From: Prochlorococcus marinus XMU1404 | GTDB lineage: Bacteria > Cyanobacteriota > Cyanobacteriia > PCC-6307 > Cyanobiaceae | Direction of reading: 5' to 3' | Length of the DNA stretch: 64,000 nt | NCBI RefSeq assembly: GCF_017696175.1 | Contig: NZ_JAAORE010000003.1 | Span: forward strand, 186,001 to 250,000 | Shown: in pieces, positions 8,032 through 12,700 of the stretch | Position numbering within the stretch: position 1 is the first letter of the stretch | How the letters are laid out: each line of letters starts with the position of its first letter | Notes under the pieces: model-generated | What the model saw: only the letters and a program-made list of their open reading frames with translations | What the model was told of the DNA's origin: nothing | Database searches by the model: none | Translations under genes and position numbers: made by a program

Positions 8032-9511
8032 TTTTCAAAAAGATATTTAATCCCATAAAAAATATAAGCAAAAACAAAAGAGGTTTATCTCCAAATTTTG
8101 TATAGAAAGTCTTTTCGGATGAAAAATTAGGGAACACTATTTTATTTTGCTCAACATTTAAATCTAGCATTTGAATTATTTTTCCATCATCCTGAACTAA
8201 ACCCGAAGGGCCTGTGTTTGATACGAGTAAATTATTTTTCTTATTTTCAATACTTCTTAACCTAGCCAATGATAGAAATTGATTATGCAGCTTAATTGGA
8301 TAGGGATCTAAATTTGATGCAGTTATTATTAGTTTTGCACCACTATTAATAGCCTTTCTTATTTTCAATCCATCACTAATTTCGTAACAGATAGCTACTG
8401 CTAATGGGGGGGTAAATTTAGGATCGAAAAATCTTGAATCGGAACCCGGTTGAACTCCTCCTACTGCAGATAATCCTCTTGAAAAACTATTTAGAAATAC
8501 AGGTATATTTTCACCTAATGGAACAAGTCTACTTTTATCTATGAAAGAGGTAAAAGATTTATCTCCAATTTGAAATCCTAGTAAAGAACTTCTTAACTCA
8601 TTATTGTAATTTCTGAAACCTCCTGCCAAAGTATTAATTTTAATGCCTTTAGTTAAATAAAAATTATTAGATAGAGTTCCTTCGGGAGCAACAAGAAGTT
8701 TTGCTTTATTGGCTAAAGCATATTCTTGAGCGATAGATTGTTTTTCTTTAATAAACTCATCATCTATTTTCAATTTTTCTCTTGTTGGGATATTTGTTTG
8801 CCAAATAGCCACAGGAAATTCAGAGTTTCTTTTTATTGGATTTGTTAGGGCCCCAAATAAATGTAAGAAAACAATTATTAAAGATCCAAAAATAAATATT
8901 TTTTTGAAATGAAGTTTTCTTCTCCATCTACCGTGACTAAAAAAAATCCAAAATCCAATCAATATTTGTAATACGCATAAACCACTTGCACCAATCCATC
9001 TTGCCAACCCAGCGAGATAAATATCACCTGGGACAAGACTTTCACCTAAACCTATCCAGAAAAAAGGTGTTTGAGAAAGTATCAATTCACCAATCCCCCA
9101 AGTCAAAGATAAAAAAAATACTTTTATGATTAAAGGCATAATTTTCATATTAAAAACATCCTCTTTCCAGAGAATCATTTCAACTAACAGCCCCCATAAA
9201 TAAACTAATAACCCACCCCAAATAGCACAAAATAATAATATTGAAATGGCAATTATTAAACTTGCAAACCATGAAAACCCAAGCCATGTCAAAGGATGCA
9301 GATCATATAACCATGAATGACTTATCAAAACAAAGAAAAAGCCCCACCAAAAATTTGCTATTTTTCTTTCACTTCCTTCCCATAAAATAAATAAAGATAT
9401 CGGCATAAAAATCAGCCAAAAGTAAGTTGAGACTGAAATTCCTCCTAAAATTCCACCTAGGCAAGGGTAAAAATATTGTCTTAAACTTTTTATCTTAGTC
9501 GGGATTAACAA
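8024..9511 (-). CDS. lnt: Apolipoprotein N-acyltransferase
   Basis: Lnt adds the third acyl chain to outer-membrane lipoproteins at the inner membrane. The 495-residue protein has a hydrophobic N-terminal half with about six membrane spans (1-215). A nitrilase-fold periplasmic domain follows. It shows the catalytic Glu in [12 protein letters not shown] and the catalytic Cys in [10 protein letters not shown], and a final membrane span closes the protein ([15 protein letters not shown]). The start is TTG. It overlaps mnmA by 8 bp tail to tail and is divergent from the FKBP gene (86 bp gap). Sequence identity in the membrane half looks low, as is usual for the family. Confidence 0.9.
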
Positions 9512-9597
9512 TCTAAAATTACGAAATTAAATTTATAATCACTCATTTATTGTACCTTTATTCTGTAATATTAGTTTTAGTAACTTTCAAAATTTAA

Positions 9598-10170
9598 GTG
9601 AAAGAAGTCTTTATTAGTTTTGCAGTTTTTGTTTTTTGTGTTTCGTTAACTCTTTTCAGTCAATTTAATTCACAACAAGTGGTTAATGCTGCCGAATCAG
9701 AAACTCAGTTAATTCAAAAAACACCTATTGCAAAATCATCAAATGTTTCAAATAATAATTTATTTGAGCTAGACCCATCAGATCCAAATCCTATACTTTT
9801 CGCTATGGCAGAAGAAACACAATCAGAAAGCAATTCAAGGACTACAGAAAGTGGTCTAGTTATTTTGGATATCGTAAATGGGGAAGGAGATGAAGCTAGT
9901 GCTGGGCAAACAGTTACTGTAAACTATACAGGAACTCTAGAAGATGGGACACAATTTGATACTAGTATCGGTAGAGCTCCATTTAGCTTTCCATTAGGTG
10001 CTGGAAGAGTAATTAAAGGTTGGGACGAAGGTGTCGCAGGAATGAAAGTTGGAGGTACAAGAAAATTAACAATTCCTCCGGAACTTGGATACGGATCTAG
10101 AGGGGCAGGAAATGTTATACCCGCCAATGCAACTTTGATATTTGAAGTTGAATTATTAAAAGTCAATTAA
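9598..10170 (+). CDS. FKBP-type peptidyl-prolyl cis-trans isomerase, secreted or membrane-anchored
   Basis: This enzyme accelerates proline isomerisation during protein folding. The 190-residue protein begins with a hydrophobic segment (about 3-24) that ends in a VNAAES-type site, so it is probably exported to the thylakoid lumen or periplasm. A Ser/Asn-rich linker follows. A single FKBP domain (about 83-190) carries [27 protein letters not shown] and [20 protein letters not shown], which contain the usual active-site aromatic residues. The start is GTG. It is divergent from lnt and lies 79 bp before sodN. Family assignment is certain; the cellular location is inferred from the N-terminus. 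Confidence 0.93.
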
Positions 10171-10249
10171 ATTTAAGTAAGAAAAATATCTAAGACTTTT
10201 CAATTTAGTTAATCTCCAAGTAATATATATACAACTCCAAATATTTGAA

Positions 10250-10723
10250 ATGTTAAGTAAATTGATCAATTCTTTTCTAGATAAAAAATCCCCAATGACA
10301 GTCCATGCTCACTGTGATGGTCCTTGTGGTGTTTATGATCCAGCATCAACGAGAGTTACTGCTGAAGCAGTTTTATCAATGACAAAAAAACTTATTGCAC
10401 TAGAAGCTCCTTCTAGCACTGATTCAGCAGAGTGGGCTACATATAGTAATACATTTTCTAGATATGTTGCAGTTAAAGAAGAGCAAGCAAAAGAAACAAA
10501 GAAAGAAATTCTAATTTTGTGGACAGACTACTTTAAACCAGTTCATTTAGAAACTTATCCAGACTTACATGAAACTATTTGGAAGGCGGCCAAATTATGC
10601 AGTGCATGCAAAGTTAATATTGATTTAGCTCAAGCTGAAGAGCTCATGAGTTACGTAGAAAAGATTCATAATATCTTCTGGGCTTCAAAAGGGAGATCAG
10701 ACGCTTTCGTAAAAGCTAGTTAA
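10250..10723 (+). CDS. sodN: Nickel superoxide dismutase (precursor)
   Basis: SodN converts superoxide to peroxide and oxygen using a nickel ion. The 157-residue precursor has a 20-residue leader followed by the nickel hook HCDGPCGVY at residues 21-29. Cleavage must expose His21, because its amino group is a metal ligand; Cys22 and Cys26 supply the thiolates. The rest is the four-helix bundle. The leader is short and charged rather than a typical Sec signal, as in other cyanobacterial SodN. The maturation protease sodX follows immediately and a nickel permease gene comes next on the opposite strand. This is the marine cyanobacterial substitute for Fe-SOD. Confidence 0.97.
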   Translation: MLSKLINSFLDKKSPMTVHAHCDGPCGVYDPASTRVTAEAVLSMTKKLIALEAPSSTDSAEWATYSNTFSRYVAVKEEQAKETKKEILILWTDYFKPVHLETYPDLHETIWKAAKLCSACKVNIDLAQAEELMSYVEKIHNIFWASKGRSDAFVKAS

Positions 10724-10728
10724 TCAGA

Positions 10729-11124
10729 ATTATTTTCAAAAGTTTTTTTGATTTTATTTTATTTTTTTTAGGTTTAAGAAAAACCGCTATTATTAGTGGT
10801 GAATCTATGTATCCTTACCTAAAAGACGGGGATATTGTATTTTTTAAAAAATATAAAAAGAATAAATCAATACTAAAAAATCGACAAATAGTTATTTTTA
10901 ATCATCCACTTAAAAATAAAAACCTAATAAAACGGATAAATTCAGTAAATCAAAATAATATTGAAGTTCTTGGCGACAATATTGAACTTAGCGAAGATAG
11001 TAACAAATTCGGATTAATCAATGACGAAAAAATTATTGGGATTGTCACCTCTAAATTAATTTTTCCTAAATTAACAAATTTTTTAATTCAAAAAAACAGA
11101 AGCACTCCTTTGAATCCAAAATAA
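10729..11124 (+). CDS. sodX: Nickel-type superoxide dismutase maturation protease (signal-peptidase-like), non-canonical start
   Basis: SodX removes the SodN leader to free the nickel-binding His. The signal-peptidase S26 fold is visible. The Ser of GESMYP (Ser codon 10804-10806) and the Lys of LIKRIN form the catalytic dyad, and GDNIELSEDSNKFG is the usual distal motif. The first ATG (10807) lies one codon after the catalytic Ser, so it cannot be the true start. The frame is open upstream to 10720 and encodes a conserved-looking anchor (FFDFILFFLGLRKTAIISGES). It contains no ATG, GTG, TTG or CTG. ATT at 10729 or 10732 is the best candidate, six to nine bases after the sodN stop. Function is confident; the exact start is not. 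The 3' end overlaps sodT by 42 bp. Confidence 0.85.
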   Translation: MIFKSFFDFILFFLGLRKTAIISGESMYPYLKDGDIVFFKKYKKNKSILKNRQIVIFNHPLKNKNLIKRINSVNQNNIEVLGDNIELSEDSNKFGLINDEKIIGIVTSKLIFPKLTNFLIQKNRSTPLNPK

Positions 11125-11757
11125 TCCCAAAGAAAAGGAAAGCCCTCCTGCTACAGCTATTAATCTTTTAATAAATTTTTGACTTGCTTTAAAGGTGGTA
11201 AAAGATATTAAACAAGTAAAAAGATTCATACTTGTTAGTGAACCAATCAAATATGAAATCAAATATAAGCAAGCACTTGTTAAAGGTAGTGCCAAAGCAG
11301 GAAGAACTGCGAGGAAATGCGAACCTCCAGCTATACCGTGTAGCAAGCCTAAACCTGTCAAAGCATGTGAGTGCTTATTATTGTTATTTTTTTGTTCCTT
11401 AACATGAAAGTGAAAGTGACGATGGGCAATTCCATTCTCATGCTTATGGGAATGCGAATGGATACTTAATTGAAAAGAATTTTTAATAGCAAATACTCCA
11501 ACAATTAGAAGAGAAATTCCAACTAGGAATTCGGCGATATTGGAAAATTTGTTTAATGGCGTAATATCCTTAATAAAAATAGCTAGGAAAGCTAACAAGA
11601 GGACACCTGAAGAGTGTCCTAAGCCCCATGAAAAACTATTTCTAAGAGCTTTTTTGGGATTATTAATCGCTGCTGGTGCCATTGCAATTAGATGATCAGC
11701 GCCACTAACAACATGCACAAATCCTGCAACTACTCCAGTTAAAATTACAGCTTGCAT
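11083..11757 (-). CDS. sodT: Putative nickel permease (UreH/NicO/HupE-like), SodT
   Basis: This is a membrane protein of 224 residues with about six spans. It starts MQAVILTGVVAGFVHVVSGADHLIA, where the His and Asp resemble metal-path residues of nickel/cobalt transporters. A central loop (about 99-130) is packed with histidines (HSHSHKHENGIAHRHFHFH and a later KHSH), a likely metal-sensing or metal-collecting segment. HGIAGGSHFLA follows in the second half. Position beside sodN and sodX strongly suggests nickel supply for Ni-SOD, as proposed for sodT of marine cyanobacteria. It runs convergent to sodX and overlaps it by 42 bp. Substrate is inferred from context and not shown by the sequence. 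Confidence 0.82.
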   Translation of the reverse strand: MQAVILTGVVAGFVHVVSGADHLIAMAPAAINNPKKALRNSFSWGLGHSSGVLLLAFLAIFIKDITPLNKFSNIAEFLVGISLLIVGVFAIKNSFQLSIHSHSHKHENGIAHRHFHFHVKEQKNNNNKHSHALTGLGLLHGIAGGSHFLAVLPALALPLTSACLYLISYLIGSLTSMNLFTCLISFTTFKASQKFIKRLIAVAGGLSFSLGLFWIQRSASVFLN

Positions 11758-11812
11758 ATATATTCAGTACAACTCTGCTTATTCAATTTTATAGCACGAT
11801 TTGAAGTCAAAA

Positions 11813-12700
11813 TTAAATTGATTTAAATAATTTCTTGAAAGATTGTTCAATATCACTTTCTCTCATAAAAGTTTCACCAATTAATACTCCCTTGATTCCA
11901 ATAGATCTAAGCGAATCTAGATCTTCGGCACAATTAATTCCTGATTCACTAATGGGAATAATATTTTGTTTTAAAAATATATCAGCATATTTATGCATCA
12001 ATTCTATTGATGTTTTTAAATCAGTTTTAAAAGTCTTTAAATCCCTATTATTTATTCCAATCAAATTAAAAGATTTTAATTTTAGAATCCTTTCTAATTC
12101 ATTATCATTATGCACTTCAACAAGAACACTCATCTTTAAATTATCAGCTATTTTCTTTAGATAAATTAAATCGTCATCACTTAAAATCGCAGCGATTAAT
12201 AATATCGCATCAGCACCAGATACCCTTGCTTTATAAATCTGATAAGCAGAAATAATAAAATCTTTGCATAGTAGAGGGAGATTAGTTGATTTTCTTACAG
12301 TTTCGAGTATTTCATAACTACCTTGAAAAAACCTTTTATCGGTAAGTACTGAGATACATGATGCACCTAATCCTTCATAACAAATTGCTATGTCTTCAGG
12401 GTTAAAATCTTTTCTAATAACTCCTTTACTCGGACTAGCTTTTTTTATTTCTGCAATTACTCCTGGTTTAATTTTTGAATCCAAGATATTTTTATAAAAA
12501 TCTTTTGGGGCAGAAAGATTTTCAATTTTTTTTATTAAATCTTCTAAAGAAACTATTTTTTTAAAATTCTTAATTTCAATGTCTTTATGCCATACAATTT
12601 CTTCCAGAATATTTTTTGCTTGTGCTTCTCTATGAGGTACAGCATATTCTAAATTTTCAACCCTAACTGTTGGATTTGGTGGTCTGCGTCTTATCTCCAT
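11813..12700 (-). CDS. trpC: Indole-3-glycerol phosphate synthase
   Basis: This enzyme closes the indole ring in tryptophan synthesis. The 295-residue TIM barrel has the catalytic lysine in [13 protein letters not shown] (about 98-110), [22 protein letters not shown] and the phosphate-binding ISESGI motif. A basic 40-residue N-terminal extension ([16 protein letters not shown]) is typical of cyanobacterial TrpC. It lies 12 bp downstream of lpdA on the same strand, so the two probably share a transcript although they belong to different pathways. The call is secure. Confidence 0.96.

Follow-up and report, generated by a model that had tools for sequence, protein, structure and literature searches.

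A probable AUU start, likely coupled to sodN, for the sodX gene of Prochlorococcus, which lacks a canonical start codon upstream of its catalytic serine

Few AUU-started genes are known in bacteria, and in infC, pcnB and cvfC1 such a start goes together with autoregulation, with a low output or with a strong Shine-Dalgarno (SD) sequence. According to PMC9410913, Escherichia coli has just two genes that begin with AUU, infC and pcnB, and the AUU of pcnB is called inefficient. Conserved non-canonical starts have also been described in Staphylococcus aureus, where cvfC1 (AUU) and ccpN (AUA) carry extended SD motifs, according to the accessible part of PMC13009471. Regarding coupled genes, it is reported that, in experiments with E. 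coli and Haloferax, reinitiation or coupling depended on the two genes overlapping or being separated by a very short gap (PMC10666635), that a stable structure after the stop hinders reinitiation (PMC7518266), and that coupling without an SD occurs in vivo, the SD being one of the factors affecting coupling (PMC12548453). AUU has no match in the available text of the last of these, a review of coupling.

The sodX gene of Prochlorococcus marinus can be compared with each of these systems. With infC (IF3) and pcnB of E. coli it would share the AUU start and an output kept low, differing from them by its place behind another gene in a closely spaced pair and by the lack of an SD-like motif. With cvfC1 and ccpN it would share a non-canonical start that is conserved among relatives; however, cvfC1 stands at the head of its operon and has an extended SD, whereas 97 of 98 sodX loci of the genus lack an SD-like 4-mer. 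The likeness between sodN-sodX and coupled pairs such as galT/galK lies in a stop and a start only a few nucleotides apart. AUU starts as such are already known from infC, pcnB and cvfC1, and the new element is genus-wide conservation without a Shine-Dalgarno sequence, which is what makes the putative AUU of sodX notable. In addition, sodX would provide a natural test case of how termination-reinitiation relaxes start-codon choice, and the gene, which is needed for NiSOD activation, sits in very abundant photosynthetic cells. No report of the sodX start was found in the literature, as judged by titles and abstract openings among the matches listed, which covered few subscription papers. The infC gene of the same genome (L254, G000:C3:494095-494592) was considered as a parallel AUU case and rejected, as it starts with ATG.

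The window, a stretch of 64,000 nucleotides from strain XMU1404, carries sodN, encoding the Ni superoxide dismutase precursor, at 10250..10723 on the + strand (ATG start, stop TAA at 10721-10723; TIGR02753 with 244.7 bits, PF09055). The sodX frame, on the same strand, is closed upstream by a TAG at 10717..10719, within the last sodN codons, and is open from 10720 to the stop at 11122-11124, with no ATG, GTG, TTG or CTG before the catalytic serine. From 10720 onwards, its codons are TTA ATC AGA ATT ATT TTC AAA AGT TTT TTT GAT TTT ATT TTA, continued by TTT TTT TTA GGT TTA AGA AAA ACC GCT ATT ATT AGT GGT GAA TCT, the last being the serine codon of the GESMYP motif (10804..10806). The first ATG of the frame follows it immediately (10807..10809, codon +1) and cannot start a working enzyme, because the needed serine sits upstream of it. 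On both points, the frame open to 10720 without a canonical start and the ATG directly after the serine, the earlier note is borne out. It had also placed the two candidate ATT codons, at 10729..10731 and 10732..10734 (codons -25 and -24 from the serine), six to nine bases after the sodN stop; this holds when positions are counted, the two codons lying 5 and 8 nt past the last base of the stop. Read from the second of them, sodX, the predicted Ni-SOD maturation protease gene, spans 10732..11124 on the + strand (130 codons from 10732) and its product would begin with (f)MFKSFFDFILFF, including the hydrophobic N-terminal segment IFKSFFDFILFFLGL (10732..10776, + strand), a likely membrane anchor.

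The absence of NTG codons in a single genome is weak evidence, since, given the codon usage of sodX, a stretch of 28 codons would be free of any NTG with a probability of about 0.61. The missing start is real because a constrained gene must start in this region and because the same absence of ATG, GTG, TTG and CTG between the previous in-frame stop and the serine is found in 88 of the 98 own-genus loci; the lack of a canonical sodX start is thus confirmed and is not a sequencing error. A consensus scan of the + strand from 10000 to 11400 gave no sigma-70-like promoter for sodX, and no Rfam match reached the gathering score within 9500-12000.

As for the protein, SodX passes the curated cut-off of TIGR02754 (75 vs 63.25 bits), and both Ser29, in an SMxP motif, and Lys71 of the open-frame SodX (Lys codon at 10930..10932, + strand) are invariant in 11 aligned sequences. 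The serine is presumed to have the catalytic role that it has in the peptidase S26 family, and the lysine is taken to be the expected general base of the Ser-Lys dyad, again as in that family. The gene adjoins sodN, and in all 98 own-genus loci a sodN-like frame ends at most 50 nt from the start of the open sodX frame. The protein of the window therefore shares with the SodX family the passed cut-off, the Ser and Lys residues and the adjacency to sodN, and it is a predicted maturation protease of the SodN precursor. It differs from the family in its start codon, and its hydrophobic segment is not covered by the match to the 90-position model TIGR02754, which begins at residue 25, shortly before the serine. 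TIGR02227, the bacterial signal peptidase I model, aligns from residue 2. In a single-sequence structure prediction of low confidence (mean pLDDT 41), residues 2-20 are helical, 13 residues have a pLDDT of 70-90 and every residue from 18 on is below 50.

The comparison among relatives was based on a first set of 149 genomes, in which 87 matched the SodX of the window, and on an order-wide set of 399 genomes, in which TIGR02754 had matches in 373 at E 0.001 and above its cut-off in 240. Among the matches listed, 98 loci of the same genus (L001-L078 and L154-L173) and 70 loci from 24 other genera of the same family (L084-L153, listed matches above the cut-off only) were read; five more distant loci (L079-L083) were left out of the counts. 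The loci were picked by match quality and listing, not randomly, and genera with only weak matches were left out. Moreover, 266 own-genus genomes were scanned with a start-codon motif, and the best 80 of 172 named homologues, labelled Prochlorococcus, with two uncultured Synechococcaceae, and including MIT 9302, were inspected; 76 of these were read and four dropped, as the motif was not found. The named loci overlap in part with the own-genus loci.

Considering ATG, GTG and TTG only, no such codon is found between the previous in-frame stop and the serine in 92 of the 98 own-genus loci, and codon +1 is the first of them in the sodX frame in just as many. The ten exceptions that bear an NTG codon are L024, L039, L042, L049, L074, L075, L076, L078, L169 and L173. 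Meanwhile, codon -24, at 10732 in the window, is ATT in 87 loci, ATC in 6, ATA in 1, ACC in 2, AAC in 1 and GAA in 1 (n = 98), and codon -25, at 10729, is ATT in 51, GTT in 40, ATC in 3, TCT in 3 and AAA in 1 (n = 98). Taking both positions together, ATT or ATC is present in 96 of the 98 loci, the two others being L076, with ATA and a CTG at -26, and L169 (G247), where a 5-nt deletion in the N-terminal segment puts the ATT out of frame and a TTG (-17) in frame. This deletion restores a canonical start and could be an assembly error; if it is not, it suggests that the part upstream of -17 is perhaps dispensable. The motif scan found ATT or ATC followed by the conserved N-terminus in 139 of the 266 genomes (4 of the 139 with ATC) and ATG, GTG or TTG followed by the same conserved N-terminus in none of the 266, the remainder lacking the exact motif or the locus. 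From the best 80 of 172 named homologues, 70 of the 76 loci read have no NTG and all 76 have ATT at -24. The AUU at 10732 is thus the most likely start as judged by conservation, the constraint boundary and the motif scan, with that at 10729, which is GTT in 40 of the 98 loci, as an alternative in strains having ATT there; the suggestion of the earlier note that one of these two codons is the likely start agrees with the 96 of 98 loci.

The third base of the ATT is not conserved beyond that of ordinary Ile codons, by a criterion set in this analysis and not published. At most one ATA is found in 8 of 16 ATT-majority Ile columns of sodN and sodX, the putative start ATT included, and 15 of 30 T-majority four-fold columns are without G. 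According to these counts, this ATT is indistinguishable from an ordinary Ile codon, and they give no sign of active avoidance of ATG. Third-base conservation was dropped as start-codon evidence, being matched by half of the ATT-majority Ile columns.

The point at which coding constraint begins was located by several features. In-frame stops occur at -29 (65 loci, matching the TAG at 10717-10719 of the window), -28 (7), -27 (5) and -26 (6), and none is found from -25 on (n = 98). Amino acid entropy is high at -26 (1.67), lower at -25 (1.22) and lowest of the three at -24 (0.31), with single later positions also being variable (1.39 at -19 and 1.66 at -1). In codons -23..-13, the third position changes about twice as often as positions 1 and 2, a pattern that is not present upstream of -25; the ratio of nonsynonymous to synonymous codons reaches 16 upstream, compared with 3.2 in -23..-13 and 1.3 in the core, as calculated from 97 loci with L169 left out. 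In addition, the hydrophobic N-terminus is conserved among own-genus homologues, and the gaps of a 22-sequence DNA alignment, of which L169 with its more downstream deletion is not part, lie after the sodN stop and ahead of codon -25. The stop distribution, the entropy drop, the codon pattern and the gap placement across loci consequently point to a sodX start at -25/-24; the ratio of 3.2 in -23..-13 against 1.3 in the core, together with the variable positions, counts against it.

At the junction itself, the ATT or ATC of the 96 loci follows the sodN stop at a distance of 3-11 nt, as expected of a termination-reinitiation pair (an overlap or a gap well under 20 nt). Upstream of codon -24, an SD-like 4-mer (GGAG, GAGG, AGGA or AAGG) is found in a single locus and in none of the other 97. 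The consensus of 22 sequences shows no conserved RNA structure around the start and no base pair past the sodN stop; in the window alone, a weak hairpin just past the sodN stop covers both ATTs, with -6 kcal/mol (z -0.58) or, when 20 nt more upstream are included, -9.3 kcal/mol (z -2.06). On the basis of what is seen in these sequences, namely the lack of a canonical start, the conserved ATT/ATC, the onset of constraint, the short gap and the missing SD-like motif, sodX would start at AUU, or AUC in a few relatives, with ribosomes coming straight from termination at sodN, a reading to which a probability of about 0.64 is given. Ribosomes finishing sodN at the stop 5-8 nt upstream would then reinitiate at the sodX AUU, and the closeness of the terminating ribosome would offset the poor codon. 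Low yield may be the purpose, as a weak start would hold SodX, which is needed in catalytic amounts only, well below its substrate SodN. Against this reading stand the third base without a special signal, the two loci without ATT/ATC, the weak hairpin of the window, the inefficiency of the pcnB AUU and the influence of the SD on coupling.

Other routes to SodX have to be weighed against this one. An AUU start independent of sodN, in which the A/U-rich leader itself recruits free 30S subunits, is unlikely: the region is indeed A/U-rich and free of conserved structure in the 22 sequences, but 97 of 98 loci lack an SD-like 4-mer, the distance to the sodN stop is short in the 96 ATT/ATC loci, and the conserved non-canonical starts of S. 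aureus carry extended SD motifs in the accessible part of PMC13009471. This short gap and the missing SD-like motif favour coupling to sodN, which the earlier note had raised together with a frameshift from sodN; the latter is rejected as a general mechanism. If SodX were an extension of SodN made by programmed frameshifting or stop readthrough, the frame relation between the genes should be fixed and their overlap open, yet the relation takes all three values in the genus (2, 0 and 1, mod 3, in 72, 13 and 13 of 98 loci), and this excludes both as a general route. The 13 own-genus loci with sodX in the same frame after the sodN stop, as well as the many loci of other genera in which the open sodX frame reaches back 60-100 nt, or further, into the 3' part of sodN, would suit such an extension; most loci, however, have a sodX-frame stop at -31 to -26, at or past the sodN end, and in loci such as L061-L063 this stop falls after that of sodN, so that the idea is very improbable.

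Slippage within sodX is quite improbable. Translation would start at an out-of-frame TTG (10748..10750, + strand) and enter the sodX frame by -1 slippage, ribosomal or transcriptional, on a run of eight T (T8) at 10762-10769. An out-of-frame ATG, GTG or TTG open to a run of at least six A or T before the serine is present in 68 of 98 loci, and the 5-nt deletion of L169 brings that very TTG into frame. The arrangement is, in contrast, absent from the other 30, of which 25 have no in-frame ATG, GTG or TTG and 22 no NTG at all, the longest T-run has at most five T in 14 of the 98 loci, and the constraint from -24 to -18 is left unexplained. A shorter enzyme, started at another non-canonical codon of the N-terminal segment, would be compatible with the ATT codons at -16 and -5/-4, with L169, which could start at -17, and with a TIGR02754 alignment that begins only at residue 25; since the absence of stops and the codon-type pattern extend to -25/-24, little likelihood is granted to it. 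That sodX is decaying or untranslated in the genus is barely credible. The canonical start is missing, what G373 retains of sodX is a C-terminal piece, with no match to sodN in the genome, and L077 has 44 residues after the serine; against this, at least 88 residues separate the serine from the stop in 97 of 98 own-genus loci, L077 being the exception, the codon-type pattern is present, and of 16 own-genus genomes checked because they gave no family match or a weak one, 14 are without sodN too, while in the remaining two it lies where a contig ends.

Beyond the genus, reinitiation at an AUU-like codon after sodN may be one form of a wider behaviour. In the other genera, no ATG, GTG or TTG lies between the sodN stop and codon -18 in 52 of 70 loci, and 16 of 24 genera lack these codons there in most of their loci; with 80 nt of overlapping sodN included, there is still none in 24 of 70. 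The kind of junction varies between genera. In g43 and g48 (within L084-L112), a CTG overlaps the sodN TGA (CTGA) in 22 of 26 loci, with GTGA in one; g42 (L133, L140-L144, L152, L153) has an overlapping canonical start, either GTG or ATG, which in all eight loci sits at the same place, 23 nt ahead of the sodN stop; and g41 has no ATG, GTG or TTG between the sodN stop and -18, an Ile codon at -21 in 8/8 loci and a TTG inside sodN in 4/8. The earlier note had expected homologues to conserve the anchor and an ATT/ATC or to start with ATG at the aligned place: the former is found in the 96 of 98 own-genus loci, and the latter in g44, where two of three loci (L085, L089) have ATG ATG at -26/-25. 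The third, L093, has ATT where its sister loci have ATG, and it is not a clean case of ATT for ATG because another ATG is found further up, inside sodN. It is conceivable, though doubtful, that the choice of the sodX start codon is almost unconstrained throughout the marine picocyanobacteria, that delivery by sodN termination, rather than the codon or an SD, defines the start, and that the AUG-less junction is usual in the family. Ribosomes leaving sodN would then start at any weak near-cognate codon close to the stop. This family-wide claim is weaker than that for the genus, as many loci can be read as overlapping or CTG starts.

The missing start also concerns annotation. Gene finders are likely to miss or shorten sodX, as it has no normal start signal, and a caller restricted to ATG, GTG and TTG would return a 105-residue protein without the catalytic serine, or none. 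NiSOD and sodX are called core in Prochlorococcus in the available part of PMC10119275. Meanwhile, the accessible portion of a survey (PMC8346466) lists ten cyanobacteria with sodN and without sodX, four of them picocyanobacteria without any other SOD, and suggests that their sodX might exist and simply not have been sequenced. For these sodN-only cyanobacteria, an artefact of the start codon could be another account. Among the 16 own-genus genomes checked here, 14 without a family match and two with a weak match only, none has a complete sodN and its downstream region but no sodX, and in G283 and G007 sodN is present at a contig end.

Some minor observations were made in these genomes and at the locus. 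The C-terminal piece of sodX in G373 (G373:C10:55300-55449, L257), one of the 14 checked genomes without sodN, is a remnant or reflects an assembly gap, and neither sodN nor sodX was found in G238, G310, G361, G362 and G379, which are 91-99% complete, perhaps owing to contig gaps or real loss. In the window, the 3' end of sodX overlaps tail to tail, by 42 nt (11083-11124), with a gene on the opposite strand (11083-11757), which encodes a His-rich membrane-like protein. Its product fits the Ni transporter SodT and is a candidate for it. The SodT reading of 11083-11757 also leans on the available part of PMC4284471.
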